Shown: positions 7,491 to 22,372 of the stretch, one piece after another | Layout: every line of letters starts with the position of its first letter | Position numbering within the stretch: the stretch's first letter is position 1 | IMG/VR virus record: IMGVR_UViG_3300042889_002598 | Location: 1-24,023 of that record | From: a virus | DNA length: 24,023 nucleotides | Strand: one strand, 5' to 3' | Position numbers and translations under genes: made by a program | The notes under the pieces: model-generated | Seen by the model: the letters and a program-made list of their open reading frames with translations, nothing else | Database searches by the model: none | What the model was told of the DNA's origin: nothing

Positions 7491-7523
7491 ACTCCTATAA
7501 CAATTAAATAACAGGCTAATCCA

Positions 7524-7888: not shown

Positions 7889-8050
7889 ATGATAAGTAAC
7901 AATGAAGTAATTGCAGAGATTAACTCTCTTGCTAAGACACATTATGATGACATGGCACTTGCATGGTCATGGGGTTGTGCAACAGCCCTACTCACAACAG
8001 AACAGTTGCAGTTAATTCTAGGAATACTAAAAGAGAAAGAGGTAGCATAG
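7889..8050 (+). CDS. 53-aa microprotein
   Basis: Begins MISNNEVIAEINSLAKTHYD, with a second helix (TEQLQLILGILKEKE). A longer reading frame in another phase overlaps it but lacks a ribosome site; the continuous chain of stop/start contacts supports this frame. The stop TAG overlaps the next GTG start (TAGTG). Function unknown. Confidence 0.6.
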   Translation: MISNNEVIAEINSLAKTHYDDMALAWSWGCATALLTTEQLQLILGILKEKEVA

Positions 8051-8148
8051 TGAACGCTATGTACGCACACACCTGCGAGTTTTGCGGGGATACAGGTATC
8101 ATCATTTTTAGTGAGAAAGAGACCCGCATAGACCCTTGCAAGTGTTAA
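8050..8148 (+). CDS. 32-aa zinc-knuckle microprotein
   Basis: GTG start overlapping the previous stop (TAGTG), or ATG at 8059. Begins MNAMYAHTCEFCGDTGIII and ends DPCKC: a CxxCG knuckle (C9, C12) and a terminal C-x-C (C30, C32), enough for one zinc ion in a rubredoxin- or DnaJ-like knuckle. Function unknown. Confidence 0.55.
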   Translation: MNAMYAHTCEFCGDTGIIIFSEKETRIDPCKC

Positions 8149-8394
8149 GATAATTAGCGGGTACTAGTGTCAAACTAAACCATGGCACTAGTATCCAACA
8201 CTTAGGCAGACCTCGTTGGTTAGGGTTTGAGGTTTGCGATCATGGTTAAATCGTTGTCATTATGGGCGCACTATTATTTTGTGTGCATTTTCTGTATAGC
8301 ATGTATCATACATCTGGACAAAATATTCAGATTTTAGGCTATTTGGGTTTTACAAAATTTTTCAGATTTCGACGGGATAAGGTATAATATTCCT
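8149..8394 (+). ncRNA. Untranslated stretch with two strong hairpins
   Basis: No gene. TACTAGTG (8162-8169) pairs with CACTAGTA (8186-8193) around a 16-base loop, and GCAGACCTC (8206-8214) pairs with GAGGTTTGC (8229-8237, one G-U pair) around 14 bases. Neither stem is followed by a T run. They could be a 3' element of the 7623-8148 operon, a structured RNA, or recognition sites. The rest of the region (8240-8380) is A/T-rich without recognisable features apart from the promoter at its end. Confidence 0.4.
8383..8394 (+). promoter_or_regulatory. Leaderless promoter TATAAT-N6-ATG
   Basis: TATAAT at 8383-8388 ends six bases before the ATG at 8395, so transcription should begin at or beside the start codon. 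The extended -10 TG is absent here (AGG instead). Confidence 0.65.
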
Positions 8395-8604
8395 ATGGGC
8401 ATATTAGATAATCTAGAAAATTCCTGGGACATAGAAGTCAGACCAGAACCAAGCAATCCAAAGTTTGAATCAAGTCCATTCCCAGTAACAGACAACATGG
8501 GTAGAGAAGTATTTTGGAAGGATATGGGCAGACCAGAAGAGCCTAACCTGGCTGTAAAAATATTTTCAGAAATGTGTTGTCAAGGCTGTAGTTGTAAGTC
8601 TTAG
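8395..8604 (+). CDS. Hypothetical 69-aa protein with Cys-rich tail
   Basis: Begins MGILDNLENSWDIEVRPEP and ends in MCCQGCSCKS; the four clustered cysteines could bind metal. Probably translated from a leaderless transcript, and the first gene of a short operon with the SGNH-like gene 15 bases downstream. I recognise no family. Confidence 0.65.
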   Translation: MGILDNLENSWDIEVRPEPSNPKFESSPFPVTDNMGREVFWKDMGRPEEPNLAVKIFSEMCCQGCSCKS

Positions 8605-8619
8605 GAAAAACATTTCAAT

Positions 8620-9603
8620 ATGACCAAAGTAAATAAATCAAATAAACTAAATGAGATGTTTGTAAAAGATCCATTTAACTGGTCCAACTCAAGGTATAAA
8701 CTTTATTACAAAAAGGGTAAAATAGCAGATAACCAAGATCTATTGTGGACTCCAGATGAAGATAAAGATCCTTATACAGTAAATTCTATTGGATACAGAA
8801 GCGATGAATTTTCAGAAACCAGAGACATAATTCTTGCAGGCTGCTCTAATACTTGGGGAGTTGGAGTTGTACTTGATGGAATTTGGGGAAATATTTTATC
8901 TAAATCGTTAAATACAAAATCATACAATCTAGGAATATCAGGAAAAAGCACACAATTTATTGTAAGAAACACAATAGCATTTTGCAAAGAGTACGGCAAC
9001 CCAAAGTTTATATTTTGTTTATTTCCAGAATTCACAAGAATTCAGATGAAGTCTGAGGCTTCTTTTATGGTTGGAAAAGATATATTTTCAAATAGGGCTG
9101 GACGGCATGAATACAGTATTCTTCCAAACAGAAAAAATCCGATCAAAGATACAAAGTACTCTAAGGCTCCTCATTTGGCTGAAGATATGATTCCTTCAGA
9201 ATTTCTTTTTTCAATAAACCTAGACTACATCCACATGTTGGAGTTATACTGCGAATTAAACAATATAAAGTTGTTCTGGGGAACATGGGATGGATGGCAA
9301 GATGAATATTTGCATAAAAATATAGATTCTATGGATTTTAAAAATTACGTCTACTTAGAGCAAAATAAATGGGACAGAAAACCAGATAATCAATATATAG
9401 ATCAATTTTTTGAAAATGGAACTGCTATAGACTGTCATGAAGAATACAGGGAAAAATATGGCATGAATTTTGACTTCCCTATGGACGGAAACCCTAAAAG
9501 TGGTTTGCCAGGAGAAAGTGTAGTCTTAGGACATATGGCGGCACATAATCATATTCACATTGCAGAAAAATTTGAAAAGGCTTTTAAAAATGCTGGCAAT
9601 TAA
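8620..9603 (+). CDS. SGNH/GDSL hydrolase-like protein
   Basis: 327 aa. Residues 71-80 (ILAGCSNTWG) form the SGNH block I with Ser76 as likely nucleophile. Block II is NLGISGKS (104-110), and a strand KFIFCLFPEF follows. Near the C-terminus LGHMAAHNHIHIAEKF (about 303-318) resembles block V with the catalytic His, although the usual Asp three residues before the His is not present. Such enzymes are esterases that deacylate polysaccharides or peptidoglycan; next to tail genes it may trim the host glycan coat or modify a glycan. Ribosome site AGGAAAA before the ATG. The fold is likely, the substrate unknown. Confidence 0.7.
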   Translation: MTKVNKSNKLNEMFVKDPFNWSNSRYKLYYKKGKIADNQDLLWTPDEDKDPYTVNSIGYRSDEFSETRDIILAGCSNTWGVGVVLDGIWGNILSKSLNTKSYNLGISGKSTQFIVRNTIAFCKEYGNPKFIFCLFPEFTRIQMKSEASFMVGKDIFSNRAGRHEYSILPNRKNPIKDTKYSKAPHLAEDMIPSEFLFSINLDYIHMLELYCELNNIKLFWGTWDGWQDEYLHKNIDSMDFKNYVYLEQNKWDRKPDNQYIDQFFENGTAIDCHEEYREKYGMNFDFPMDGNPKSGLPGESVVLGHMAAHNHIHIAEKFEKAFKNAGN

Positions 9604-9676
9604 GTATTATATATACAGAATCAAACTAAAGTTTCGCAGAAAGAAAGATGACGATAAGCCAAGGTTTATCTATTAG
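9590..9676 (+). CDS. 28-aa basic microprotein overlapping the SGNH gene
   Basis: ATG at 9590 inside the last codons of the preceding gene in another frame. Begins MLAIKYYIYRIKLKFRRKK and ends in an acidic-then-aromatic tail (DDDKPRFIY). This basic-helix plus (D)n-FIY architecture is seen in tiny downstream proteins of other tailed phages. Small size keeps confidence moderate. Confidence 0.4.
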   Translation: MLAIKYYIYRIKLKFRRKKDDDKPRFIY

Positions 9677-9678
9677 TT

Positions 9679-9864
9679 TTAATTAAAAACGCCTTTAACC
9701 TCAAGGTCGTCATATATCAAACCCATCATATGCTGCAATGCTGGATACTGTCCATCAATGTTTTTTGCAATATCAGCATCATTCATCTTGGCCTGCTTCA
9801 TTAAATTGATGTTATAGCCATTTACTGTTTCAATCATAATCTCGATTACTTCGTGTCTTGTCAT
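9679..9864 (-). CDS. Hypothetical 61-aa protein
   Basis: I choose the ATG at 9864 (MTRHEVIEIMIETVNGYNIN), which overlaps the upstream stop as ATGA with an AAAAGGA site six bases away, over an ATG six bases earlier that leaves no spacing. It is helical (IMIETV, LMKQAKMND, ALQHMMGLIYDDLE). It is coupled to the DHH-like gene. Function unknown. Confidence 0.65.
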   Translation of the reverse strand: MTRHEVIEIMIETVNGYNINLMKQAKMNDADIAKNIDGQYPALQHMMGLIYDDLEVKGVFN

Positions 9865-10631
9865 ACCCATTCCTTTTCTTGGTCGTATGTAACAGAATAT
9901 TCTCCTGTAAATATCTCTGCATAAGAGATGATATCTCTATTATACCTTATTAGCGTTTCTATGCCAACTTTGTCACATACATACTTCATACCCTGGACTA
10001 GTGGCTCAAACTTCATCTCCTGCCCTGCTAGGGCGTTATTTAGGGTATCTATGTAACGTGTCTTGCCATAACGTTTTGATGTAAATGATTGATCAACATA
10101 ATCAAACCTTGCTTGTGCATCATTCTTTCTTGCAATGTCCGAATTGTCTGTTATGTACTTTGTTGCAGGATGTTCCATCCTTGTAGACCAGTTTCGCATG
10201 TTGTCGCTGTACTTCTCCATGTTTTTTAGAGTTGAGTCAGCGAAAGCCATGCGTATGAGGTCTTGTTCGGATAGGTCAGCCTCTATTGCGAACGAAATCA
10301 AAAAAGCGGTTGCGAAAGGAAACTTGTCGCTATATGTCGAAACGCCGAAGTGCACATTCGGATTAAACGACTCGACTGACATATTGTCTTCTAAGAGTCG
10401 CATATGGTTGCCGAGAGACACATACTCTTGACGATTCATATCGCAGTCGACGAACAAGCATTCTTCTGGATTGATCCCGTCGGCGAGACATAAAATATTT
10501 TTGTCATACGAACCGACTATTTTCGAACCGTTAAAACGCTCTAGTAATTTTGCGGACATAAAACCATCCATGTCAGGGGATATAATTAAATTCTTAGAAT
10601 ACTCCAAGGTGTCAAGTATGGCTGTTTTCAT
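9861..10631 (-). CDS. DHH phosphoesterase-like protein
   Basis: 256 aa. The opening SPDMDGFMSAKLL (residues 18-30) matches motif I of DHH-superfamily phosphoesterases (D-x-D-G-x-x-S/A), and a second acidic strand (LFVDCDMNR, 59-67) and SLGNHM (72-77) stand where motifs II and III (DHH/GNH) would be. The classical DHH triplet is degenerate. DHH enzymes hydrolyse linear (di)nucleotides or polyphosphate using Mn2+; a phage version could remove signalling or defence nucleotides, but the divergent metal site makes activity uncertain. It is on the minus strand inside a plus-strand region, with the 61-aa gene, and is divergent from the holin-like gene at 10666. Confidence 0.6.
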   Translation of the reverse strand: MKTAILDTLEYSKNLIISPDMDGFMSAKLLERFNGSKIVGSYDKNILCLADGINPEECLFVDCDMNRQEYVSLGNHMRLLEDNMSVESFNPNVHFGVSTYSDKFPFATAFLISFAIEADLSEQDLIRMAFADSTLKNMEKYSDNMRNWSTRMEHPATKYITDNSDIARKNDAQARFDYVDQSFTSKRYGKTRYIDTLNNALAGQEMKFEPLVQGMKYVCDKVGIETLIRYNRDIISYAEIFTGEYSVTYDQEKEWV

Positions 10632-10650
10632 TTTTGTAAAATACTCCCCT

Positions 10651-10656
10651 TATAAT
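10651..10656 (+). promoter_or_regulatory. TATAAT box upstream of the holin-like gene
   Basis: TATAAT ends nine bases before the ATG at 10666, giving at most a three-base leader. The overlapping minus-strand sequence (TATTAT/TTATAA) could serve the divergent DHH-like gene. Confidence 0.5.
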
Positions 10657-10665
10657 AATCTAGTT

Positions 10666-10935
10666 ATGACAATTCAGGACTGGGCCTCATTAATCGTCGC
10701 AATACTTACAATTGTATCATCACTTGGACTTGCAATCAAGTGGCTTGTAAAACATTATCTCAGCGAACTTAAGCCAAATTCTGGATCATCATTAAAAGAC
10801 CAAGTTAATAGACTTGAAAGCGCACTAGATGAACAAAGGATTGATTCACAAAGATCCAGAGATCGCCAAGAAAAGAAACTTGACGAAATGTATCAGATTT
10901 TGATTAAGCACATTGCTAAAGTTGATAAAGAATAA
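10666..10935 (+). CDS. Holin-like protein: one membrane helix plus coiled coil
   Basis: 89 aa from the ATG at 10666 (MTIQDWASLIVAILTIVSSLG). Residues 6-29 form a single membrane helix, followed by a basic segment and a charged coiled coil (SSLKDQVNRLESALDEQRID...KLDEMYQIL). This matches small actinophage membrane proteins annotated as holins or holin-like. A longer in-frame start lies over the DHH-like gene and is rejected. It is separated from the lytic transglycosylase by over 11 kb, so a lysis role is plausible rather than shown. Confidence 0.6.
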   Translation: MTIQDWASLIVAILTIVSSLGLAIKWLVKHYLSELKPNSGSSLKDQVNRLESALDEQRIDSQRSRDRQEKKLDEMYQILIKHIAKVDKE

Positions 10936-10959
10936 TTTTCCTATATACTATATATAAAG

Positions 10960-10976
10960 ATAGTTTTTAAAACTAT
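10960..10976. terminator. A/T palindrome after the holin-like gene
   Basis: ATAGTTTT-T-AAAACTAT, 25 bases beyond the stop at 10935 and followed by a T-rich stretch. A weak terminator candidate; the stem has no G/C core. Confidence 0.3.
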
Positions 10977-11050
10977 AAGGATATTCTTTTCTTTTATATA
11001 TATTTTAAGTATACACTATCCCAATCTTGGCAAATAGTTCTAAAAGTAAC

Positions 11051-11107
11051 AAATCGGACATTGGCTATTATAACAATTTGATAACTTTAAATATCATGTC
11101 CGTTTTG
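11051..11107. promoter_or_regulatory. Inverted pair of AAAWCGGACAT elements
   Basis: AAATCGGACATTG (11051-11063) and, inverted, CATGTCCGTTTTG (11095-11107). Both match copies at 128 and 7306 in the early region. They lie just upstream of the first late promoter at 11115. Confidence 0.45.
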
Positions 11108-11114
11108 TCCTTTA

Positions 11115-11123
11115 TGGTATAAT
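11115..11123 (+). promoter_or_regulatory. Extended -10 promoter TGG-TATAAT (upstream copy)
   Basis: Predicted start near 11130, which is both the first base of a hairpin and an in-frame TTG codon of the following gene. It is duplicated at 11187 (shared TTTATGGTATAAT). Confidence 0.55.
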
Positions 11124-11129
11124 TTATTA

Positions 11130-11185
11130 TTGGCTAATACCTTGGTTTGTCCTATACCCACCAACCTTGGTATTAGTCAATTTTT
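11130..11185 (+). ncRNA. Candidate small RNA or attenuator of about 55 nt
   Basis: Stem TTGGCTAATACC (11130-11141) / GGTATTAGTCAA (11169-11180), 12 bp with one G-U pair, followed at once by T5 (11181-11185). The promoter at 11115 would start transcription at the base of this stem, so the unit promoter-hairpin-T run is a complete tiny transcription unit ending just before the next promoter at 11187. Confidence 0.5.
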
Positions 11186-11186
11186 A

Positions 11187-11195
11187 TGGTATAAT
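11187..11195 (+). promoter_or_regulatory. Leaderless extended -10 promoter TGG-TATAAT-N6-ATG
   Basis: TATAAT at 11190-11195, ATG at 11202. A weak -35 (TTGGTA at 11167-11172) lies 17 bases upstream within the hairpin. Confidence 0.7.
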
Positions 11196-11201
11196 CTCAG
11201 T

Positions 11202-11597
11202 ATGCCTATTCATTCATCCCTGACCTTTGGTGCTGATCCAGTATCAATGCAGTGGAGTGTTGTCAGAGGAGATACCGCTACTTTAAGAGTAGAGTTCTAT
11301 GAAGATAATGAAACAGACTATTACGATACTTCTGGCTGGATATTTAGAGCAACCGCTTATGATCAATCTGGCAATGTTTTAGATGCCCTGGAATGTGAGC
11401 CTGGAGAAGGTTTTGTTGATATTACAGCCTACCCTTCAGTTACAAAAAATTGGGGATCTAAATACTCATCAATCGTGGCTCAACTACCATTTGATATACA
11501 AGTAACAATTCCAGAACCAATCGAAGATACTGTTTGGACTCCAGTAATTGGAACCATTCATGTTTTAGGCGACATTACACCAGGGGGTACACTATAA
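11202..11597 (+). CDS. Tail/baseplate-type structural protein (BppU-N-like)
   Basis: 131 aa from the ATG at 11202, the leaderless start. A TTG at 11130 would add 24 residues but would lie within the hairpin. The core WSVVRGDTATLRVEFYED resembles the N-terminal domain seen in baseplate upper protein-like minor structural proteins, and is shared with the genes at 22950 (WTVVRGDSAAFRV) and 14447 (YYKGDTFEFRI). The rest is beta-rich and ends WTPVIGTIHVLGDIT. Its stop overlaps the next start (TAATG), so it is probably co-translated with the large fibre. It may anchor the fibre. Confidence 0.65.
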   Translation: MPIHSSLTFGADPVSMQWSVVRGDTATLRVEFYEDNETDYYDTSGWIFRATAYDQSGNVLDALECEPGEGFVDITAYPSVTKNWGSKYSSIVAQLPFDIQVTIPEPIEDTVWTPVIGTIHVLGDITPGGTL

Positions 11598-13687
11598 TGG
11601 CAGTTATTAAGATTGTTCCAATGCCAGGCGCAGTTGGAGACAAGGGAGACGAAGGTGCTCCAGGACCACAAGGTCAGCAAGGACCAGCAGGTCAAAATGG
11701 TTTGCCAGGAACACCTGCTCTATGGTCATATCAAGGTGCATGGCAATCAAATGCTGCCTATGCAATTGGAGATTTAGTAACATACCAAGGACAACTTTAT
11801 TATACAAAGTCAGTTACAACTGCTGGAACACTTCCAACCGTTACTGCAAAGTTTGATTTAATTGCATCGAAGGGTGCAGATGGACAACCAGGTGCTAACG
11901 GCACTAATGGTGCAGATGCTATTTGGAATTATGTTGGAGAATATAGCGGTGGTGCATCATATACCGTCGGAGATGTTGCAACATATGATGGACAACTATG
12001 GTACCGTGCTAATGCAAATGGTGGAAACGTTGGAGACACACCATCACAAGGATTTATTTGGAATCTGCTTGCAGCAAAGGGTGCAGACGGAGCAGATGGC
12101 TCTAGCGGACTTGCATACTTAGGAAACTATGTCTCAGGTAATGGATATGTTACAGACCTTGCAGTTGTAAGAGGAAGCGACAATAACCTATACATCGCAA
12201 AAGCAAGTGGTGGTTTAGCAGATCCAGTTGGTAACACTGCAGAGTGGGACATATTCTCTACTAACACTGGTGGCGGAACTGCAAACATTGCAGACTTTAT
12301 TTTTACAGACAATGGTGGAGATAGTTCAATAACTCTTCCTGGCGACAAAGGTATGAGAATTGAAGCAGGAGCAGATAGTGATCTATTTTTAACTGCTGGA
12401 GATGACCTTTACATACAAACTCTTGGCGCAGGAGATGACATTCACATTCAAGCAGCAGATGATATTCGTTTTACAACAAATAACGAAGATTTTGAAATTG
12501 CTGGAACAGTGCCACAATGGACGATGAATTCAGAAGGTGAGTTTCATCTACCTGGAAATGGTATTATCTGGAATCCATCAAACTCATCTGGTGATGGATA
12601 TGGCAACGACACAATCCATCTTATTCCAAACGATGTAGATAATGACACAGAGCAAAGAATTATTATTGATCCAACTGCACCAAACCACATTCATCTTCGT
12701 GCAGGTGGAGTACAGGATTACTCTTCTGCAGACCTAATCCTTGGTGGAGAACGTGCAGGAGTTCGTGTTTCTGATACAGAGGGAACCACTGTTGTTCAGT
12801 CAAAGCAAGAAGACTGGTCTTGGTCTTATACAAATATCAATGATGTTGAAAGCACTACATACCGTGTAGGAACATCACTTGCAGAACCAGACTATAATGA
12901 TTTTACAATTCTCAATGGCGTTAAGTATGTTATTAATAATGTAGTACGAGATGAGCCACAGGGCATAACAGAGTACACTGCTATCGCAAGTGATAGCACA
13001 CAACTTGTATTTTATCCTGAATGGAGTTATACATTTACAAGAGACCGTGGAGAGTATCATTGGACCTTTAATAGAGCAGGCTACTTAAATGGACCTACAG
13101 AAACAGGCCATCTGCGTGTCACAGGTATTGTAAATGATGACGGTAATTTAGAAGTTCACGCAGATCAAAATCTTGTTATTAGTGGTGGAGAAAGTAATGG
13201 AGAGTATTTACATGACTCATCCGATATAGCAAACCAGATTGCAACTCTTGGAGATATAGCATATTATCAAAATAGTTCTTTTGCAGAAGTTCCATATACA
13301 GTTAGCGGTGGAGCACTTGAAACCCAACCAACATTTAATGGTGCTCCATTGTTTGCGGGTAGTTATACAAAGACTGGAAACCTTGTTCACTTTAGAGTTA
13401 ATGTTAACATGAGTAATATTACTAACTTTGGTTCTGGACAATACTATGTTTCAATACCGTTTACTTCTGAGTATGATGTTTATGTTCGTAATGGACAACT
13501 CAAGCATTCATCAGGAGACATGTATTCAGTGTCAGGGCATGCAACTGCTGGAAGCAATGAATTAAGACTTTACACAACAGCATCAAATGGTAAGGAAGTT
13601 GCATTTACAAGTTCAAGTCCAGTAGGACTAAACACTACTTGTGATTTCCATATATTTGGATCATATTTCTCAACTCCAAACGCATAA
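11597..13687 (+). CDS. Tail fibre with collagen-like and CBM5/12-like repeats
   Basis: 696 aa from the ATG at 11597, behind AGGGGG and overlapping the previous stop. Order: a short N-terminus; Gly-X-Y collagen-like stretch (about residues 15-38, GDEGAPGPQGQQGPAG); a carbohydrate-binding-like module (WQSNAAYAIGDLVTYQGQLYY, about 45-75); short GADGQPGANG linker; second module (YTVGDVATYDGQLWY); GADGADG linker; third, more divergent module (VTDLAVVRGSDNNLYIAK). A long beta-rich region follows and a C-terminal domain of about 140 residues ends in DFHIFGSYFSTPNA, probably the receptor-binding tip. The modules suggest binding to host surface polysaccharide. It likely trimerises through the collagen-like parts. 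Confidence 0.85.
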   Translation: MAVIKIVPMPGAVGDKGDEGAPGPQGQQGPAGQNGLPGTPALWSYQGAWQSNAAYAIGDLVTYQGQLYYTKSVTTAGTLPTVTAKFDLIASKGADGQPGANGTNGADAIWNYVGEYSGGASYTVGDVATYDGQLWYRANANGGNVGDTPSQGFIWNLLAAKGADGADGSSGLAYLGNYVSGNGYVTDLAVVRGSDNNLYIAKASGGLADPVGNTAEWDIFSTNTGGGTANIADFIFTDNGGDSSITLPGDKGMRIEAGADSDLFLTAGDDLYIQTLGAGDDIHIQAADDIRFTTNNEDFEIAGTVPQWTMNSEGEFHLPGNGIIWNPSNSSGDGYGNDTIHLIPNDVDNDTEQRIIIDPTAPNHIHLRAGGVQDYSSADLILGGERAGVRVSDTEGTTVVQSKQEDWSWSYTNINDVESTTYRVGTSLAEPDYNDFTILNGVKYVINNVVRDEPQGITEYTAIASDSTQLVFYPEWSYTFTRDRGEYHWTFNRAGYLNGPTETGHLRVTGIVNDDGNLEVHADQNLVISGGESNGEYLHDSSDIANQIATLGDIAYYQNSSFAEVPYTVSGGALETQPTFNGAPLFAGSYTKTGNLVHFRVNVNMSNITNFGSGQYYVSIPFTSEYDVYVRNGQLKHSSGDMYSVSGHATAGSNELRLYTTASNGKEVAFTSSSPVGLNTTCDFHIFGSYFSTPNA

Positions 13688-13692
13688 TATCG

Positions 13693-13701
13693 TGAGATAA
13701 T
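13693..13701 (+). promoter_or_regulatory. Leaderless extended -10 promoter TGA-GATAAT-N6-ATG
   Basis: GATAAT at 13696-13701 ends six bases before the ATG at 13708; TG is present three bases before the hexamer. Confidence 0.6.
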
Positions 13702-13707
13702 AATCGC

Positions 13708-14439
13708 ATGGCTGTTTCTAAATCTATGGACTTTCCAGGTGCAAAAAAGTCTTCTTATGCTGCACAGGTAGAACAAAGTCAGGCATCGCCATCTTTAGAT
13801 AATACTCTTTCATTTCTTCCAGTCCCTGGCCCAGTAGGACCACAAGGACCCGCAGGTAGAGACGGCAGAGACGGAAAAGAAGGACCTCAAGGACCAGAAG
13901 GAAAGCCAGGCCCAAAGGGTGATAAAGGTCCAGCAGGTAAAGATGGAGCAAGTTCTGTATCATCTTCAGGACAGCAGGCAGGATGGGCTTCATATACAAA
14001 TACTATTGAAAAACCAATCAAACTTGGAATCTCTCAAGGAGACGATGGCTGGGTAACACTTTTGTTAGACACAAAGGACAAATCACAGAATGAGACATAC
14101 CTTCCTAAAGGTTGTACCAGTCTTTGGAATAGCCACCAAAGAGCCCTAAACTTCCACGGTATCAATGAGGGCTCACAAATATTCGTAACCTACAACTTTG
14201 AACTAACTACCTATACTGCAAATACTGAGGTTTGGCTAAGAACATACTTTGCAAGCAAGGATCAGGAGTTCGTACAGTTGGTAGGGTCTTTAAAGTATCA
14301 GAATGTGTATAACCTTTCAGTCACCCAAAACATATTTATTGAAGACAAGGCTATGTGGGGCAATGGTGCAGTTCCTCAAATCAGAACAGACTTTGATGCA
14401 TCCGTAATTCTCAACTCTGTCTACGTCAGCGTGGTATAA
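13708..14439 (+). CDS. Tail fibre protein with collagen-like stalk
   Basis: 243 aa. Residues 1-38 are a polar N-terminus, 39-82 are Gly-X-Y repeats (GPVGPQGPAGRDGRDG, then KPGPKGDKGPAGKDG), and the remaining 160 residues are a beta-rich head (WVTLLLDTKDK ... EVWLRTYFASKD) ending in SVYVSVV. The stalk-plus-head layout is typical of trimeric phage fibres. The last two Val codons and the stop form part of the promoter for the next gene. Several prolines are in the Y position before Gly, the site used by collagen-type prolyl hydroxylases. Confidence 0.8.
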   Translation: MAVSKSMDFPGAKKSSYAAQVEQSQASPSLDNTLSFLPVPGPVGPQGPAGRDGRDGKEGPQGPEGKPGPKGDKGPAGKDGASSVSSSGQQAGWASYTNTIEKPIKLGISQGDDGWVTLLLDTKDKSQNETYLPKGCTSLWNSHQRALNFHGINEGSQIFVTYNFELTTYTANTEVWLRTYFASKDQEFVQLVGSLKYQNVYNLSVTQNIFIEDKAMWGNGAVPQIRTDFDASVILNSVYVSVV

Positions 14440-14440
14440 T
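14432..14440 (+). promoter_or_regulatory. Leaderless promoter TGG-TATAAT embedded in a stop codon
   Basis: TATAAT at 14435-14440 contains the TAA stop (14437-14439) of the preceding gene and ends six bases before the ATG at 14447. Confidence 0.7.
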
Positions 14441-14446
14441 AAAACC

Positions 14447-15571
14447 ATGGCATTTCCAGCAATTTACGACTTTAACTATTATAAGGGTGATACCTTTGAG
14501 TTTCGTATCTACCCAAAAAAGAATGATGGAACGGTTTTTGATTTAAGTTCATTTTATGTGCCAACAAATTATGCAAATGACCCAGATTATGTATTGGATT
14601 CATCAGCATCGTATGACAGTGCACAATTCACTATTGCCGACGGTAGAGGACCAACCAAAATTGTTAATGGACTTCCTGTTGCAGTAGAAACGTTTAAATG
14701 TTTTGCTAGAGTATCAGATGATAATACATTTGTTCAGTGTGCAATCAGGCCAACAGAAGGAAGCGGACTTCTTGCTGGAACAGAGTATGTTTATGACGTT
14801 GAGGTTAAAAAGCCAGCAGGACTCCCAGGAAGCGGACAGTACGAGATTGTTCAGACTCTCCTTACTGGTAAAATAACAGTCACAGATCAGGTTACTGGTG
14901 CTACGGAATCAACTCAAGGCTCCTTGTCAGATTATAATATTTTAGGATTAGCAGTTCCAGTTACTTGTGCAGAACCAGGTACATCAATTATTGAAACATC
15001 AGAATACTCTGGATCGGTTGTTTGGTATGAGCCAAACGGAACAACCCCTATTTCTACAACAACTTTTAGCCCAGATAAAGCGTATAAGGCAAAAATAACT
15101 ATAACTCCAAGACCACCATACAAGATTACTGGAACTCCTGCCAACAAGTTTTCAGTCGATGGTGCAAACATTACGACAAACCCTTCTTACTCTGGCACAG
15201 CATCAACTGCAGTAGTTACGGCAACATTTCCAAAGACAGCAAAATCAGTTTCTCTTTCATCTATAACTGGCATTACTTCCCCAGTAAAAAATGCAATACC
15301 AAATACATCAGTTGCTGCAACAAGCGAATATACTGTATCACTGTCTTGGAAAGAAAAATCATTAACAGATCCAGTCGTTTATGAAAACTTTACTGGAAAC
15401 TTTAAGCCAGAAAGAACATATGTAGCGCAAATACTATTAACTCCTAAAACGGGATATACTCTTTGTACAGGAATTGATGCAGACTTTTTCTCTGTTGCAG
15501 GTGCACTAAATTATACAAATAGTGAAAACTCAGGAATTATTATTGCAGAATTTCCTGTAACAGGTGCATAA
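14447..15571 (+). CDS. Structural protein with BppU-N-like start and two tandem Ig-like repeats
   Basis: 374 aa. Residues 1-150 begin FNYYKGDTFEFRIYPKKNDG, related to the genes at 11202 and 22950. Residues 165-265 and 266-374 are two homologous repeats: each has a Pro-rich strand, a (T)SEY(S/T)-x-S-(V/L)-x-W motif, F-x-P-(D/E)-(K/R)-x-Y-x-A-(K/Q)-I, a TP(R/K) turn, F(S/F)V-(D/A)-GA and an A-T-F-P / A-E-F-P end. This repeat type occurs in bacterial surface adhesins. The stop overlaps the next start (TAATG). Role: minor tail or adhesion component. Confidence 0.7.
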   Translation: MAFPAIYDFNYYKGDTFEFRIYPKKNDGTVFDLSSFYVPTNYANDPDYVLDSSASYDSAQFTIADGRGPTKIVNGLPVAVETFKCFARVSDDNTFVQCAIRPTEGSGLLAGTEYVYDVEVKKPAGLPGSGQYEIVQTLLTGKITVTDQVTGATESTQGSLSDYNILGLAVPVTCAEPGTSIIETSEYSGSVVWYEPNGTTPISTTTFSPDKAYKAKITITPRPPYKITGTPANKFSVDGANITTNPSYSGTASTAVVTATFPKTAKSVSLSSITGITSPVKNAIPNTSVAATSEYTVSLSWKEKSLTDPVVYENFTGNFKPERTYVAQILLTPKTGYTLCTGIDADFFSVAGALNYTNSENSGIIIAEFPVTGA

Positions 15572-16167
15572 TGGCAGACATCCTTTTATCAAATGAAGAC
15601 TTAACAGTTTTTGGCGGTCCAGAAAGCATTAGCCTTGATTTAGATATAGGTCCTCAAGGTGATCGTGGAAGCATTATTATTGGAACCCTTGGAGATCCTA
15701 GAAACGCTAATGTTGCATCCTATATTGTTCAAGATGTTCAAGCATTAGACATTGCTGTAGACGGAAACCCAAACTCACCAACATACAGAACTGTGTTTCA
15801 GTTCATTGCTACTCCAGGTGGACTTCAGTGGACACCAGTTGTCAGCCTTAAAACAGAATTTTACTCGTCTACAAAAACAGTAACTGCTTCAAACGGCAAA
15901 CTTGTTATCCCACCAATTAACGTAACAGATATTTATTTGTTTGAACAAAACAGCACTGTAAACTCTTCTAACTTTAGCGTACAGTACTCAATATCATCAC
16001 CAGAGTCTGGTGGCCCATTGGCAACAACTATGGTAGTGAAAGAGTTAAACTCTGGACCAGGATTTTTAGCACTACCGCTTGAAATAAAGGGTGTAGAATA
16101 TGATGGAGAGACTTGGGTTCCAATAACAGGGACTAAGGTCGTCCACCTATTTATTACGGTGGTATAA
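15571..16167 (+). CDS. Structural protein of the tail-fibre cluster
   Basis: 198 aa, starting MADILLSNEDLTVFGGPESI and coupled to the previous gene. A short collagen-like remnant (GPQGDRG) is followed by a beta-rich body (LQWTPVVSLKTEFYSSTK ... VPITGTKVVHLFITVV). No catalytic motif. The final GTG GTA TAA is part of the next promoter. Probably a fibre or baseplate component of unknown detail. Confidence 0.65.
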   Translation: MADILLSNEDLTVFGGPESISLDLDIGPQGDRGSIIIGTLGDPRNANVASYIVQDVQALDIAVDGNPNSPTYRTVFQFIATPGGLQWTPVVSLKTEFYSSTKTVTASNGKLVIPPINVTDIYLFEQNSTVNSSNFSVQYSISSPESGGPLATTMVVKELNSGPGFLALPLEIKGVEYDGETWVPITGTKVVHLFITVV

Positions 16168-16168
16168 T
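16160..16168 (+). promoter_or_regulatory. Extended -10 promoter TGG-TATAAT embedded in a stop codon
   Basis: TATAAT at 16163-16168 overlaps the TAA at 16165-16167. Unlike the others the next gene starts 18 bases downstream (GTG at 16187), giving a leader of about 12 bases with GGGTGA as a possible ribosome site. A six-codon mini-frame (ATG at 16167) ends as TAGTG on the real start. Confidence 0.6.
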
Positions 16169-16186
16169 GAAAAAGGGTGATTTATA

Positions 16187-18313
16187 GTGGCAGAAGAGAA
16201 TATTGATAATACCGTCAATGGCACGGGACTCTTCAACACCAAAATCCCAGGCCTTTCAGATCCAGCAGATATTCAGGCAGCGCTAAGACTTTATCACTAC
16301 GGAACTTATACATACGATGGTGCAAATACAAACCCAGCGATTCTTCCAGTCCCATCTATGGCAAAGCACCTTCAAACACTTGTTGATGCCGATGCAGCAG
16401 AGGTAGTAAATAGAAATGCTGCTATTGCCGTAGAAACAGCAAATAGAAATACTGCTATTGCAAACCATAATGCAGCAACCATAAATGTCCACGGTATAGA
16501 AAACACAGCACTTCTTGCAACAAAAGAATATGTAGACACAGAGATACTAGATGCAATTGATGGTGCAACAGGGGCTTATTCAGCACTTGCTGGAACTGGC
16601 CTTGATTGGAATTCTCTTGATGGAAGGTTTGATGTTGAACCAAGAATTGCAAACGTAAATACAGTAATAGAAAAAACAAATAACTTTATTTTAGAGTTAG
16701 ATGATGTAAATAAAACTATTCTTCTTAATACTTCTTCTACAATGAATTTGACTGTCCCAGCAAATTCTTCAGTAGCAATTCCAGTTGGGTTTAGATATAA
16801 TGTAGTTGAAATTGGTTCAGGAGTAACTACTTTTGTTCCAGCATCAGGTGTAACAATTAATAGTAAAAACTCACAACTATTTATCGATACGCAGTATGGA
16901 CAAGTAACATTGTTAAAGGTTGCAGAAAATTCTTGGATCGCTTATGGAGACATATATGAAGGTGCATCTTCCCCAACACCTACACCTACTCCAACTCCAA
17001 CACCTACGCCTACACCTACACCTACTCCAACTCCTACCCCTACACCTACACCTACTCCAACTCCGCCAACGCCAACGCCAACCCCTACTCCAACACCAAC
17101 ACCTACTCCTTCACCAACCCCTACTCCAACTCCTACCCCTACACCTACTCCAATAGTTGATTGCGGTGCATGTGAGCCTTATACAACAACCGCTCCAACT
17201 TGTAACGGAGAAGATAGTTATGTAGGTATTTATACTGGAACTAGAAAAACATGTAGCGACGGATCTTATGAAATTTGTACACAGCCAACCTTTACTGGAT
17301 TTGGTGAATGTCTTGCAGTTAATGTTAGTTCTTGTGGAGGTTCTGGTGGAGCAGGAACATCATGTACTCCTTCAACACCGACACCAACACCAACACCAAC
17401 ACCGACACCAACACCAACACCAACCCCAACCCCTACGCCAACCCCAACCCCAACTCCTCCTTGCAACCCTGACTGGAGTTTAATTCCTCAATCACAATGT
17501 GAAGAGTGTGGATTAGTATGGAACGCATCATTTGGTGAATGTATTAGTACAGGTTCACCTACTCCAACACCTACTCCAACACCTACTCCAACGCCAACCC
17601 CAACCCCTACGCCAACGCCAACCCCAACCCCTACGCCAACCCCAACCCCAACACCCTTTGGACCAAACTGTAATGATGTAAATACTCTTGGATCTGGAGA
17701 TTGTGCTGCATGTGGATTAGTTTGGAATCCATCATTTGGAGAGTGTGTTACTCCTTCATCACCTACACCAACGCCAACACCGACTCCAACTCCAACACCA
17801 ACACCGACTCCAACACCAACACCTACTCCAACACCAACACCAACACCAACACCAACACCAACACCAACACCAACACCAGCGCCATGTCAAACATTCTTCT
17901 GTGCTGCTTATGGAGAAGAAATATGCGTAGGAGACTTCTGTCCATCAAATTCACCAACACCAACACCAACACCAACACCTACTCCTTCACCAACCCCTAC
18001 TCCAACTCCTACACCTACTCCAACTCCTTCACCAACCCCTACCCCAACTCCTACACCTGTACCAGCACCCGCACCAACACCTTCCTGTGCTGATTTTGGA
18101 GAATTAGGAACTTACCCTAACTGCTACCCTGCTGGAGAAGCGCCAACACCACCTGCGCCAACACCACCTGCTCCAACACCACCTGCGCCAACACCACCTG
18201 CGCCAACACCACCTGCGCCAACACCACCTGCGCCAACACCACCTGCGCCAACACCACCTGCGCCAACACCACCTTCACCAACTCCTTCACCTGGAGACAT
18301 GGAACCAATTTAA
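16187..18313 (+). CDS. Large Pro-Thr-rich fibre protein with Cys-rich modules
   Basis: 708 aa from a GTG start. Residues 1-258 are an ordinary fibre-like region: helices with [20 protein letters not shown], then a beta domain ending IAYGDIYEG. From residue 263 the protein alternates long Pro-Thr runs with five Cys-containing modules. Two of these modules are near-copies ([13 protein letters not shown] and [13 protein letters not shown]). The C-terminus has nine APTPP repeats and then [12 protein letters not shown]. (Thr/Ala/Ser)-Pro alternation is the signature of plant arabinogalactan-type hydroxyproline glycoproteins and of mucin-like linkers. The next genes encode a prolyl-hydroxylase-like enzyme, a glycosyltransferase and a sugar epimerase, so it is my leading candidate for the modified substrate. 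Probably extended and exposed on the virion. Confidence 0.85.
16973..18085 (+). repeat. Five low-complexity Pro-Thr tracts
   Basis: CCNACN hexamer arrays at 16973-17152, 17366-17461, 17558-17656, 17762-17884 and 17954-18085, separated by the Cys-rich modules. Unit length 6 keeps the frame when repeats are gained or lost, so length polymorphism is expected. Codon choice differs between tracts (CCAACA-dominated in tract 4, mixed elsewhere), suggesting separate expansions. Confidence 0.9.
18140..18274 (+). repeat. Nine tandem 15-base repeats (APTPP)
   Basis: GCGCCAACACCACCT nine times in direct tandem. Only the third unit differs, by one base (GCT for GCG). Near-identity suggests recent expansion or frequent homogenisation. 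Confidence 0.9.
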
Positions 18314-18318
18314 TTTTG

Positions 18319-18327
18319 TGGTAGAAT
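18319..18327 (+). promoter_or_regulatory. Extended -10 promoter TGG-TAGAAT for the modification cassette
   Basis: TAGAAT at 18322-18327, predicted start near 18334 and a leader of about 20 bases containing AAGGAA before the ATG at 18355. This cassette therefore has a leadered transcript, unlike the fibre genes. Confidence 0.5.
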
Positions 18328-18354
18328 TGTATATCATAACAAGTAAGGAACAAG

Positions 18355-18600
18355 ATGACAAACAGGTTAGACAAGATTAAAGAAATAATTGAAAACAATA
18401 AAAACTCTTCTGTCAGTCCTTTAGATTTGGTTAATCCAAATGCAGAGTGGGCTGATGAATCTTTATCTTCAGAAAGATATAGCATTTGTCAATCGTGCCC
18501 AGAACTAATTAGATTAACAAAACAATGCAAAAAGTGTGGATGTTTTATGGCCGCAAAAACTAAATTACAAAAAGCAACCTGCCCTCTAGGAAAATGGTAA
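18355..18600 (+). CDS. Zinc-ribbon protein (DUF6171-like)
   Basis: 81 aa. The C-terminal half has C-x2-C, C-x2-C and a final Cys before PLGKW (CQSCPEL ... CKKCGCFMAAKTKL ... TCPLGKW), a pattern of small zinc-ribbon proteins common in cyanophages and pelagiphages, which I believe are assigned DUF6171. It may act as an adaptor, but no activity is established. It is the first gene of the modification operon and overlaps the next one. Confidence 0.7.
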   Translation: MTNRLDKIKEIIENNKNSSVSPLDLVNPNAEWADESLSSERYSICQSCPELIRLTKQCKKCGCFMAAKTKLQKATCPLGKW

Positions 18601-19202
18601 AAATGATAAAAGAAGAAATTGCTCCAGGAATAGTGGTATATAGTAATGTAATCCCAAATAGCGAAACTTTGTCTGTAGACATAGAAGAGGGTCTAGTGTC
18701 TGCAGGACTATCTTGGCATGCAGCATCAGTAAAAGAATATGAAGATCCAACGGTAAACAAAAAGACAAGAGACACAGACTCCTTTGGTGTAAACTATTTA
18801 GGGAAAGTAGATGATATATTTAATAAACCAATATCGGATGTTTTTTCTACAACACTAAACAATATTTTTTTTGAAAACTTTGATCCAATAGAAAAAGATT
18901 ACATGGACATGTATCAAATAAAATTAATGTCTCACGATTCATATGGAGTATTGAAGTATGGCAAAGGTCAAAAATTTACTAATCATATAGATGACCACTC
19001 AGATTATCATAGAAGGCTGTCAACGGTTTACTACTTAAATGAAAATTATACGGGTGGAGAAATTAATTTTCCAAGGTTTAATATTACTTTTAAGCCAAAG
19101 GCTAACCAGATGATTGTTTTTCCATCAACATATGTTTATAACCACTCAGTTTCTCCAGTTATTGACGGAGAAAGGTATGCAGTTGTTAGTTGGATGAGAT
19201 GA
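18594..19202 (+). CDS. 2-oxoglutarate/Fe(II) oxygenase, prolyl-4-hydroxylase-like
   Basis: 202 aa (the ATG at 18594 overlaps the previous stop; a second ATG at 18603 is also possible). The double-stranded beta-helix signature is complete: LKYGKGQKFTNH131-I-D133, the STVYYLNENYTGGEINFP strand-turn, and the distal H184 (YNHSVSPV) with R194 (DGERYAVVSWM) for 2-oxoglutarate. This arrangement is typical of prolyl 4-hydroxylase/PKHD-type enzymes, which hydroxylate proline in proteins using O2, Fe(II) and 2-oxoglutarate. The substrate is not shown; the Pro-rich fibre directly upstream (16187-18313) and the collagen-like fibres are the obvious candidates. Confidence 0.85.
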   Translation: MVKMIKEEIAPGIVVYSNVIPNSETLSVDIEEGLVSAGLSWHAASVKEYEDPTVNKKTRDTDSFGVNYLGKVDDIFNKPISDVFSTTLNNIFFENFDPIEKDYMDMYQIKLMSHDSYGVLKYGKGQKFTNHIDDHSDYHRRLSTVYYLNENYTGGEINFPRFNITFKPKANQMIVFPSTYVYNHSVSPVIDGERYAVVSWMR

Positions 19203-19762
19203 AAACGCCATTATTAGTAAATGATGTTCTAAACGAAAAAGAATTTGCACTGCTTTCTGAGACTGTCTCAAATCCAAAGTCTTTTGAATATCAAACAGGA
19301 TTTTCAAGGTATGTAATTGCTAACAACAAACTTCCCGTATTAGGAGAGATAGCAGAAAGACTTATACCTACTGCAAGAGAGATATTTGGAAGCCAGACAC
19401 TACTTCCTACATACACACTGTTTGCACATTATGAAGGACAAGATCCTGCTCCAAGCCTTTACAAGCACAAAGACGACAATGCATGTACCTATACTTTAGA
19501 TGTGTGTGTTTATCAGACCGAGCCGTGGGATCTATGGGTAGATGATAAGAACTATACTCTTTATCCAAATCAGGCACTTGCATATTATGGAAACGACCAA
19601 ATGCATTGGCGTGAAGAGTTTCCTAATCCAGAATCTGGACATGTTGCTATGACGTTTTTTCACTTTGCAGAACCTGACCATTGGTATTTTACAGAGGGGC
19701 CAGAATATTTGCAGGTAGTTAGAGAAAAAATTTCAAAAGAGGTTTGGAATGCAAAAAAATAA
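19199..19762 (+). CDS. Second 2-oxoglutarate/Fe(II) oxygenase-like protein
   Basis: 187 aa from the ATG at 19199, which overlaps the previous stop as ATGA. It has an H-x-D pair (KH90-K-D92) in a jelly-roll strand context (LFAHYEGQDPAPSLYKHKDD), a YPNQALAYYGNDQ turn, and a distal H136 with R138 (MHWREEF). The similarity is weaker than for the preceding gene, and it could be a divergent hydroxylase with another residue or sugar as substrate. Its place between the prolyl-hydroxylase-like gene and the glycosyltransferase suggests a role in the same modification. Confidence 0.65.
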   Translation: MKTPLLVNDVLNEKEFALLSETVSNPKSFEYQTGFSRYVIANNKLPVLGEIAERLIPTAREIFGSQTLLPTYTLFAHYEGQDPAPSLYKHKDDNACTYTLDVCVYQTEPWDLWVDDKNYTLYPNQALAYYGNDQMHWREEFPNPESGHVAMTFFHFAEPDHWYFTEGPEYLQVVREKISKEVWNAKK

Positions 19763-20693
19763 AGTAATTATAAATGCTTGGACTGGCATGTTTGGTATTA
19801 GAATGCACGAGTATGCATTCGCTAAGACATATGCATACAAAAATAATATGGACTTAGAGATTGTTTCTAATTGGGAAGGTTCTGTTATGTTTAAAAATGC
19901 AACAGAATCTTTGCTTGAACCTGAAAAGTTAAGAAGATATTTAAAAAATGGTCAAGCATCATTAGAAGAAAAAAATAGTGAAACATTAAAGTACTATCCA
20001 GATGCTATTGTTTGGGATGCAAATCATCATTTTGAAGAACCATATAAAAATAATAACTGCTCAATAATAACAAATGGAACAAATGCATACCAAGAGTCTA
20101 TATTTGATGAAATGGACCTGTCTTACATAAAAAATATATTTGAAATAAGTGATTTTATAAAAGAATCAGATACCTACAAATATTGGGAGTCAAAAGCAGG
20201 AACGTACGATGTTGCTCATCTTCGCAGAGGGGACATTGCAGATATTCAATACAACATAAACAATGAACAGGGATACTCTGTAGTTTCTAAAAACTCATAT
20301 TTTTCTGCATTTGAAAAATTTGGATATGATAAAGACAGCATAGAATGGATCTCTAACGATCACACGAAAAAATGGCATACAGATAGACCAGACATGGTAT
20401 TCTTGCCTTGGTCTTATCCAGAAGGTGCAAAGTTTGATGAAAAAATAGGATTTGATTTTCTTGACGATTGGCTAAAGATGTATTTTGCTAGAACTATCTT
20501 TAGAGGCAATAGTAGTTTTTCTTTTTGGGCAGGGCTTTTATCTCCAACAGCAAAAGTTTATTCTCCTGTCGTAAACAAACAATTAATTTATGGTCGCAAT
20601 GGGCTAACAGAAGAAATAGATTTAGATTTTACTGAGGGTAACGAGAATCACTGGATGTATTCAGAGCCATATAGACAGATAAGGATAAGATGA
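19749..20693 (+). CDS. GT11-like (fucosyltransferase-type) glycosyltransferase
   Basis: 314 aa, start at 19749 inside the end of the preceding gene. Residues 155-163 (VAHLRRGDI) match the H-x-R-R-G-D motif that binds the GDP-sugar in alpha-1,2/alpha-1,6 fucosyltransferases. Residues 252-262 (RGNSSFSFWAG) match the S/N-x-S-x-F-S-W-W-A motif of GT11. The N-terminus has the TGMFGIRMHEYAFAKTYA pattern equivalent to the GGLGNQM-F-YA start. Family members transfer L-fucose from GDP-L-fucose. Because the next gene makes GDP-L-galactose, L-galactose is the likely sugar here (inference). Confidence 0.75.
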   Translation: MQKNKVIINAWTGMFGIRMHEYAFAKTYAYKNNMDLEIVSNWEGSVMFKNATESLLEPEKLRRYLKNGQASLEEKNSETLKYYPDAIVWDANHHFEEPYKNNNCSIITNGTNAYQESIFDEMDLSYIKNIFEISDFIKESDTYKYWESKAGTYDVAHLRRGDIADIQYNINNEQGYSVVSKNSYFSAFEKFGYDKDSIEWISNDHTKKWHTDRPDMVFLPWSYPEGAKFDEKIGFDFLDDWLKMYFARTIFRGNSSFSFWAGLLSPTAKVYSPVVNKQLIYGRNGLTEEIDLDFTEGNENHWMYSEPYRQIRIR

Positions 20694-21721
20694 GAACAGC
20701 ACTAGTACTTGGAGCAGGTGGCTTTATCGGCAGCCATATGGTTAATAGGCTTAAGTCAGAAGGATACTGGGTTAGAGGTGTTGATTTAAAGCACCCAGAT
20801 TTTTCTAACACACAGGCAGATGAGTTTATTGAAAGAGATCTTTCAGTTTATGAAAATGTTGAAAAAGTAATTCAGTTTAAAGGTTATCAAGGAAACTTCT
20901 ATAGTGAAATTCCATATAGACTAATTACAGGGTTTGATGAGATCTATCAATTTGCAGCAGACATGGGTGGCGCTGGCTATATCTTTACTGGAGACAATGA
21001 TTCTCAGATTATGGAAAACTCTGCGCTTATTAACCTCAACCTACTTAGAGCACAGTCAAGGCTTAATGAAAAATATGGAATTAACAAAACCAAGATATTC
21101 TACTCAAGTTCTGCTTGCATGTATCCTGACTACAAGCAGTTAGATGTTAATAACCCTGGACTTAAGGAGTCTGACGCATACCCTGCAGATCCTGACAGCG
21201 AGTACGGATGGGAAAAATTGTTTAGTGAAAGAATGTTCTTAGCATTTAATAAAAACAATAAGATTCCAGTAGCAATTGCCAGATACCACAACATATATGG
21301 CCCAGAAGGAACTTGGGATGGTGGAAAAGAAAAGGCCCCTGCTGCAATGTGCAGAAAAGTTATAAAAGCAGACGACTCTATAGAAATTTGGGGGGATGGA
21401 GAACAAACTCGATCATTCCTATATATAGACGAATGCATAGAAGCAACAAGAAGGCTTATGCAGTCCGAATTTAAAGGTCCAGTAAATATTGGTTCTGAAG
21501 AAATGGTGACCATTAATCAGTTAGTTGATATTGCATGCAGCGTTGAGGGCAAAAGTTTAAATAAACATCACATTCCTGGCCCACTAGGTGTGAGAGGAAG
21601 AAATTCTAATAACGACTTGGTTAGAAAAGAGTTAGGCTGGGACTATTCTATGACTTTAAAAGAAGGAATTAAAAATACCTATCTTTGGATTAAAGATCAA
21701 ATAGAAAAGCCCCAGCACTAA
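20690..21721 (+). CDS. GDP-mannose 3,5-epimerase (GDP-L-galactose-forming)
   Basis: 343 aa, start overlapping the previous stop (ATGA). An extended SDR Rossmann domain, G8-A-G10-G-F-I-G14, with the plant-type GME signature ADMGGAGYI (90-98), SSSAC143-MYP, EY172GWEK176L, HNIYGPEGTWDGG-K-E-K215APAA, WGDGEQTRSFLYIDEC and IPGPLGVRGRNSNN. C143, Y172, K176 and K215 correspond to the Arabidopsis catalytic residues C145, Y174, K178 and K217 with a constant offset of two. The enzyme converts GDP-D-mannose to GDP-L-galactose (and GDP-L-gulose), drawing on host GDP-mannose. It is very close to canonical GME, so I am confident of the family. Confidence 0.9.
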   Translation: MRTALVLGAGGFIGSHMVNRLKSEGYWVRGVDLKHPDFSNTQADEFIERDLSVYENVEKVIQFKGYQGNFYSEIPYRLITGFDEIYQFAADMGGAGYIFTGDNDSQIMENSALINLNLLRAQSRLNEKYGINKTKIFYSSSACMYPDYKQLDVNNPGLKESDAYPADPDSEYGWEKLFSERMFLAFNKNNKIPVAIARYHNIYGPEGTWDGGKEKAPAAMCRKVIKADDSIEIWGDGEQTRSFLYIDECIEATRRLMQSEFKGPVNIGSEEMVTINQLVDIACSVEGKSLNKHHIPGPLGVRGRNSNNDLVRKELGWDYSMTLKEGIKNTYLWIKDQIEKPQH

Positions 21722-21722
21722 C

Positions 21723-22286
21723 TTACTTAGGGAATTTAGACATCCAGAACTTAGTTCTTGGAGTCATGCCTTTCCAGGCAATCCAGTTTTCTCCACCATT
21801 ACTCATGTGGTGTGCAATTTGTGCATTTAGAACTGGGTTAAAAAGTTCAGCATTTGCAGATAACTCAAACTTGTCTCTACGATCAGGACCAAGCGAGTCA
21901 ATCATATTGATCTGGAATATTCCGTATGATGAGTCTCCAGTGCTTTCATTTCCGTTAAAAGCCAATGGGCGACCATTAGACTCTTTCTTTGCTACAGCCC
22001 AAGCCTCAACAAGGTTCTGTCCCTTGAAACCAACTAGGGATAACATTTTCTTTAGTTCTAAATCAGTAAGAGATGTCTTGTTTGCAAAACTCTCCAGCAT
22101 TTTTTCCTTAGAAACCAAAAAAACCTCTTTCGAGGTTGTATCCGATGTCTGAGCCTGTTCAAGACTAAGGTTATTCTTCGTGCTTAGTTCTGGGGTAGCA
22201 TTAGCAGCATTAGAAAATACACTGACAAGTGCCACGATACTGAGTGTGCTAATGATCTCTTTGTTTCTTTCGATAAATTTAATCAT
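21723..22286 (-). CDS. Exported lytic transglycosylase (lysozyme-like fold)
   Basis: 187 aa from the ATG at 22286 (MIKFIERNKEIISTLSIVAL), which has a strong AAGGAGG site; a longer in-frame start is rejected. Residues 1-30 are a signal peptide (ALVSVFSNAANA). Residues 95-187 are an SLT/lysozyme-like domain: catalytic Glu102 in AKKESNGRP, the SSYGIFQINM segment (119-128), then a helix and NWIAWKG. It cleaves peptidoglycan glycan strands and may open the wall during entry or lysis. It lies on the opposite strand to its neighbours and has its own promoter (22334-22362 region) and structured leader. Confidence 0.8.
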   Translation of the reverse strand: MIKFIERNKEIISTLSIVALVSVFSNAANATPELSTKNNLSLEQAQTSDTTSKEVFLVSKEKMLESFANKTSLTDLELKKMLSLVGFKGQNLVEAWAVAKKESNGRPLAFNGNESTGDSSYGIFQINMIDSLGPDRRDKFELSANAELFNPVLNAQIAHHMSNGGENWIAWKGMTPRTKFWMSKFPK

Positions 22287-22307
22287 AGTTTCCTCCTTAG
22301 AAAACAA

Positions 22308-22333
22308 TAACACCCTGGTAGGTGTTACTACCA
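22308..22333 (-). promoter_or_regulatory. Overlapping dyads at the 5' end of the transglycosylase transcript
   Basis: TAACACC (22308-22314)/GGTGTTA (22321-22327) and TGGTAG (22316-22321)/CTACCA (22328-22333) overlap and cannot form together. The second sits directly beyond the -10 box. They could be an operator or a 5' hairpin affecting translation and stability. Confidence 0.4.
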
Positions 22334-22362: not shown

Positions 22363-22372
22363 CTTTAGATGG

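Follow-up and report, generated by a model that had tools for sequence, protein, structure and literature searches.

How is transcription organised where two copies of a promoter-like box flank a terminator-like hairpin directly ahead of a tail fibre operon, and what would the hairpin be for? The question is raised by a locus in the IMG/VR virus record IMGVR_UViG_3300042889_002598, whose whole analysed stretch of 24,023 bp is hereafter called the window. The reading favoured here, which is considered rather likely from the comparison of related phages, is that positions 11113-11185 constitute a complete small-RNA gene for a phage RNA of about 56 nt that would work through its loop, and that a separate promoter (P2) would produce a leaderless fibre mRNA.

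The sequence TTTATGGTATAAT occurs at 11111-11123 and at 11183-11195, 72 bases apart and with no further exact copy in the window, and an exact repeat was obtained in 0 of 100 shuffles, which bears out the pair reported by the initial annotation. When two mismatches are allowed, four matches are found against 1.9 expected, so that the exact pair alone stands out. The 12-bp terminator-like stem with a T5 run that had been described between the copies is likewise confirmed by the fold (-20.8 kcal/mol, z -5.6; equal stability in 0 of 200 shuffles), with inner pairs extending beyond the 12 bp (Table 1). The T-run had been said to end just before the second copy, which is wrong: that copy opens with the last three T of the run. 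The 13-base repeat is partly the tail of the terminator; the element common to both copies is the extended -10 box TATGGTATAAT, and their likeness mostly reflects this element. Generic scans do not single out the repeat-hairpin unit. Specifically, a terminator scan made no call at the window hairpin because the loop is longer than the 8-nt limit of the scan, the first box (P1) was not called by a sigma-70 promoter scan of the window because it has no -35 element, and promoter-like sites in 8000-24023 are as frequent as in shuffles (49 observed vs 49.0). A second near-repeat, ATTGGCTATTA / ATTGGCTAATA (window 11060-11070 and 11129-11139, 69 bases apart), spans the 5' base of the hairpin.

Table 1. 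Features of the small-RNA gene, of its upstream boxes and of the fibre operon in the window.
Feature	Position	Strand	Support
Tandem GTTAY boxes, 11-bp period (ATAACAATTTGATAAC on +), candidate P1 regulator site	11070..11085	-	Comparison of P1 upstream regions
P1, extended -10 box TATGGTATAAT, no clear -35	11113..11123	+	-10 at least 5/6 in 64/64 distinct loci
Predicted small RNA, ~56 nt, from stem base to T5	11130..11185	+	Fold, start geometry (80/80), covariation
5' arm of lower stem, 12 bp	11130..11141	+	Fold; double changes in 14/14 pairs
Conserved loop GTCCTATACCCACC, core ATACCCAC at 11154-11161	11149..11162	+	Core upstream in 134/136 loci listed
P2: TTGGTA, 17 bp, TATAAT with TG extension; predicted fibre operon promoter	11167..11195	+	10/12 consensus
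3' arm of lower stem	11169..11180	+	Fold; covariation
Terminator T-run, overlapping the second repeat copy	11181..11185	+	At least 4 T in first 8 bases past stem, 63/64 loci
First fibre-operon gene, phrog_1084-like, 131 aa, predicted leaderless	11202..11597	+	PHROGs E 1.8e-5; box-ATG gap 6
Collagen-like tail fibre gene of the operon	11597..13687	+	phrog_5073 tail fibre E 7.6e-16

Relatives were collected through the protein and through the loop. A first protein search with the product of 11202-11597 gave 60 viral contigs, and a broader protein alignment gave 594 confirmed relatives, the best 80 of which were taken as loci; the two sets have some contigs in common. After exclusion of loci with too little upstream DNA (L023 and L057 in the first set; L275, L276, and L287 in the second), 136 protein-anchored loci were listed, namely the window, 58 of the 60, and 77 of the 80. 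A search with the loop pattern matched at least 120 stretches. In 134 of the 136 protein-anchored loci listed, the loop core ATACCCAC lies no more than 190 nt upstream of the fibre gene. Of the other two, L320 has its hairpin farther off, at about 650 bp, and L326 lacks a match. Starting from the loop, all the 123 testable matches among the 127 listed (L063-L189) precede a protein with a P2-ATG start and an RGD motif, the other four lying at an edge. In another set of 18 matches, 17 precede a member of the family of the first fibre-operon protein (16 with RGDT/S, L337 with RGDE), and the remaining one, L349, has no P2-ATG within reach. The linkage of hairpin and fibre gene holds both ways, from protein to loop and from loop to protein, in counts that include many closely related hairpin sequences and are not counts of independent events.

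For the alignment, 64 distinct loci were drawn from the 134 by means of identical 60-mers around the loop, with the exact core ATACCCAC required; the invariance of the core among them is partly due to this selection, of which the figure of 134/136 is free. The starts of L293, L303, and L311, for which the script had taken a nearer -10 box, were reset by hand in the alignment, and the counts given here on the loop core and boxes, the start geometry, and the T-run predate this reset. With regard to copy number, each of 16 records holds one match in the gene direction (E 3e-14 or better). The hairpin is echoed on the antisense strand in 15, and four weak matches at other places (E 0.017-0.42) are taken as chance. 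Among eight further records, which like the 16 carry no completeness estimate, seven hold one match (E 3.8e-16 to 1.6e-4) and two show antisense echoes. The 34-kb record of L326 has no hairpin match anywhere, so the small RNA may be dispensable there.

The comparison shows a conserved RNA fold, its strand, the promoter geometry, the T-run, and a separate P2 with a leaderless layout. A first set comprises 46 distinct hairpins and 18 pairs; of its 828 cells, 94.8% are paired, with double changes in 10 of the 18 pairs; four of five covariation measures were reached by 0 of 500 shuffles and the fifth (further pair types) by 103 of 500. A wider set comprises 80 distinct hairpins and 14 pairs. Here 93.7% of 1115 cells are paired, double changes affect 14 of 14 pairs (189 cells), and all five measures were reached by 0 of 500 shuffles, with 27.5-49.9% of cells paired in slid controls. 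The stem sequence varies while its pairing persists, the covariation pattern of an RNA that is under selection. Moreover, the first set has 76 G.U cells on the + strand vs 1 on the other, and the wider set has 110 vs 2; these cells, being almost exclusive to the + strand, argue that the selected molecule is the + strand RNA. The loop is near-invariant, C-rich, more constant than the stem and the most conserved part of the hairpin, a trait missed by the initial annotation. Since a plain terminator can do without a fixed loop, constancy of this degree suggests that some partner probably recognises the loop.

The element combines the stable stem and subsequent T-run of an intrinsic terminator (T-run in 63 of the 64 distinct loci; weak in L320 and also in L337) with two traits of phage small-RNA genes for which the evidence lies in the sequence, namely a promoter at the RNA start and an RNA structure conserved on one strand. 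Rfam release 15 gave 0 matches at the gathering score for the window and 0 matches at E up to 1 for L142 and L170, and the search with window 10900-11300 gave one sub-threshold match, to MIR5269 on the opposite strand (E 2.4, 17.1 bits vs 60). A literature search, to whose coverage most subscription papers and preprints do not belong, returned no description of the hairpin RNA.

At P1, the -10 box is accompanied by the TG extension in 61 of the 64 distinct loci. The start predicted with a 6-nt spacer falls, in all 80 sequences, between -1 and +3 relative to the first paired base, a range of which the upper bound (+3) is the part tested, as the folds began at -1. The proposed start at 11130, at the base of the stem, is therefore upheld as a conserved predicted geometry, and the self-contained RNA of about 55 nt that had been proposed from the first box gains support from the comparison, since P1, the predicted start, the hairpin, and the T-run are conserved in divergent phages. 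Upstream of P1, GTTAY-N6-GTTAY occurs in 37 of 62 distinct but related regions, which are not 37 independent cases, against a shuffle mean of 0.05, and periods of 10 and 12 occur in one region each. A second GTTAY-N6-GTTAY site is present in the window at 7497-7512, far from any hairpin of the small-RNA family.

Other repeats lie in the same phages. TTATCCACA boxes occur in 4 of the 62 P1 regions, and tandem pairs of this DnaA-box-like sequence, 12 bp apart, lie between left-part genes in the window (173-193) and in two further genomes, G001 and G012; in G012, one such pair directly precedes the -10 box belonging to the gene before the hairpin. Cumulative GC skew gave no indication of a replication origin at the hairpin, its minimum being elsewhere in the window, G001, and G012. 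A sharp drop of the skew in the window is caused by a 708-aa protein with long PT repeats (16187-18313).

The second box is predicted from its conservation to be a separate promoter that makes a leaderless fibre mRNA, a role missed by the initial annotation. TATAAT is complete (6/6) in 64 of 64 distinct loci and lies 6-10 nt ahead of the ATG in all of them (search window 4-13; gap of 6 in the window). An SD-like motif is present at 0 of 64 P2 genes, the box itself occupying that place, vs 114 of 184 other genes without a start box. The P2 genes, thus, show a -10 box just before the start and no SD, as leaderless genes do, for which a TANNNT box some 12 bp ahead of the start codon is reported (PMC3160421). 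The arrangement TGNTATAMT-N6-ATG occurs four times in the window vs 0.05 expected, and the box-to-ATG distances of G001 peak at 6 (13 cases), a recurrence suggesting that leaderless promoters form a class here, to which P2 belongs. Between the end of the stem and the P2 -10 box lie 8-21 nt in 61 of the 64 loci and 34-47 nt in the other three. A paralogue of the first fibre-operon gene is encoded at window 22950-23339 (phrog_1084 E 3.6e-11), with TGATATAAT 6 nt before its ATG.

For the production and end point of the RNA, the action of its loop in trans, the regulator, and the occlusion of P2, we infer the following course of events. A regulator bound at the tandem GTTAY boxes probably sets the activity of the extended -10 promoter P1, which would start the RNA at the base of the hairpin. 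The hairpin with its T-run would serve both as the bulk of the RNA and as terminator, and the C-rich loop, as the working part, would be presented to a partner in trans, be it an RNA or a protein. Beyond the stem, P2 would separately make the leaderless fibre mRNA, and a polymerase that terminates transcription from P1 would come to rest on P2, whose firing it could delay. The trans model of the loop is drawn from the analogy with the C-rich loops of the actinobacterial 6C RNA, which reportedly bind mRNAs.

The occlusion step could also be the whole purpose of the unit. In such a cis-acting timing gate, P1 transcription and the terminated polymerase would occlude P2, the fibre operon would fire once P1 is off, and the RNA would be a by-product. 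The position of the P2 -35 within the 3' arm of the hairpin, the short distance from the stem to the P2 -10 box in most loci, and the regulator-like repeats upstream of P1 are consistent with this mechanism, and the constant linkage of the hairpin to one operon suits a role in cis equally well. However, a gate of this kind leaves the near-invariant loop and the RNA-strand covariation unexplained, and it does not accord with the wider spacing in three loci or with the distance of the L320 hairpin from its fibre gene; it is, all considered, unlikely.

More doubtful still is a gate resembling that at the lambda late promoter, where a short terminated RNA, the leader (6S) RNA, precedes a long gene block under the control of Q. 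Accordingly, P1 RNAs would end at the hairpin until a loop-reading phage factor lets the polymerase into the fibre and later genes. The likeness consists of the short terminated RNA before a long gene block, and the location of the hairpin close to where the long rightward block begins, in the window and in the two genomes checked, its single copy per record, and the conserved RNA element at a terminator are all compatible with it. Unlike in lambda, a second promoter here directly serves the first gene, P2 being found directly after the hairpin in 64/64 loci; in addition, a long P1 mRNA would have no SD-like motif for that gene (0/64), and further extended -10 boxes stand ahead of other genes in the block.

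A leader function, in which read-through brings the hairpin into the mRNA and a phage protein binds the loop for feedback or attenuation, is improbable, and the attenuator ahead of the fibre operon that the initial annotation had offered is correspondingly less supported. Because the fibre gene is served by its own promoter and lacks an SD-like motif, a P1 mRNA reading through to it would be ill suited to translation, and the T-run past the stem is retained in nearly all loci. The one case in its favour is L320, where the hairpin looks like a leader because the T-run is shortened to TTTTC and is followed by AGGAGG and the ATG of an inserted gene (L320:780-890), ahead of the fibre operon. By eye, the product of this inserted gene is a 2OG oxygenase resembling the one that Pfam calls at window 18594. 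Lastly, the TTG at 11130 is indeed in frame with the ATG at 11202, 24 codons ahead of it, and the frame is open in the window and in seven relatives from the first protein search, but the suggested leaderless protein with 24 extra residues is scarcely credible, with an open start in 8 of 79 sequences (the other 71 have no start codon, or are out of phase, or are stopped) and with the RNA-type covariation of the region against it.

A target of the loop was sought for the small RNA acting in trans, the favoured reading. The 9-mer complement of the loop core, GGTGGGTAT, has 23 sites in 14 records, 14 of which are the hairpin antisense, and its reversed control has 24, hence no enrichment; complements of 7-8 nt near gene starts gave no gene common to G001 and G012. 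Two 7-mers exceed their reversed controls in both genomes, TGGGTAT (25 vs 12 in G001, 26 vs 14 in G012) and GGGTATG (19 vs 8 and 17 vs 11, respectively). A ribosomal RNA target was rejected, as 406 and 464 of 1000 shuffled loops did as well as the 8-nt match to Escherichia coli 23S rRNA.

Among known systems, the 6C RNA has two hairpins, whereas the element described here is a single hairpin, belongs to a phage gene, and has no Rfam match. The 6C family model, presumably among the 4227 Rfam models used, gave no match, nor did any other Rfam family in the window, L142, and L170. The likeness to 6C lies in the stable hairpin with an exposed C-rich loop, the mode of action being proposed by analogy (PMC9569102). 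Stable small non-coding RNAs are described for the cluster A mycobacteriophages L5, D29, and StarStuff and for the Rhodococcus phage WC1 (PMC5712189, PMC10986025); they share with the present RNA the intergenic location in phage DNA, the Actinomycetota phages as carriers, and the unknown function. They were shown by RNA sequencing, whereas the hairpin RNA is known from its sequence alone, and the most abundant of them derives from a region of about 500 bp at the genome end, unlike the fixed-loop hairpin of about 56 nt before fibre genes. The lambda OOP RNA (77 nt) and the P22 sar RNA (68/69 nt) are also short phage RNAs, and OOP has a promoter of its own, pO, like P1 here; they pair with known phage mRNAs (cII, ant), whereas no phage target was found for the RNA described here (PMC12197685).

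The phages in question are little known. The G001 DNA polymerase is closest to those of Streptomyces phages (up to 54.4% identity), three of which were looked up and belong to the Stanwilliamsviridae. WhiB, taken as an actinophage mark (PMC6802176, PMC10202952), is encoded in 14 of 14 related records, a set to which the window, a fragment, does not belong, and in one of 14 control genomes (Corynebacterium glutamicum); the hosts are, therefore, probably Actinomycetota. By a mechanical choice of ORFs, leftward genes predominate next to the hairpin on its left side in the window, G001, and G012, save for one or two rightward ones immediately ahead of it, and a long rightward block lies on its right; the far left of G012 is rightward again, and the end of G001 is leftward. 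Directly upstream of the RNA gene, window 10666-10935 codes for a small protein with, by eye, an apparent membrane segment and a charged tail, and similar proteins are found at the same place in L320, L326, and G012. Bacterial carriers were considered and none was accepted, the 45 pattern matches in genome contigs being about the number expected by chance on our own estimate and the best covariance match having E 0.02. Three cultured Stanwilliamsviridae phages gave no hairpin match, at a distance that the model may not reach. In annotated phages, the 8-kb region had no DNA relative at megablast reach, the 99-bp unit gave one match at chance level (E 0.9), and the first fibre gene and its paralogue had no protein relative.

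In a wider and decidedly more tentative interpretation, the RNA would form a new family, present once in almost all records examined across a large lineage of uncultured Actinomycetota phages, and its C-rich loop would act on a conserved host RNA or protein as a shared device of host takeover. The small-RNA gene adds a structured RNA family, backed by covariation, to a widespread and little-known group of phages, in which, to judge from the sequences, the promoter of a small RNA appears to be coupled to a leaderless one for the fibre genes. Its near-invariant loop is a candidate active site and may be used as bait for the partner.
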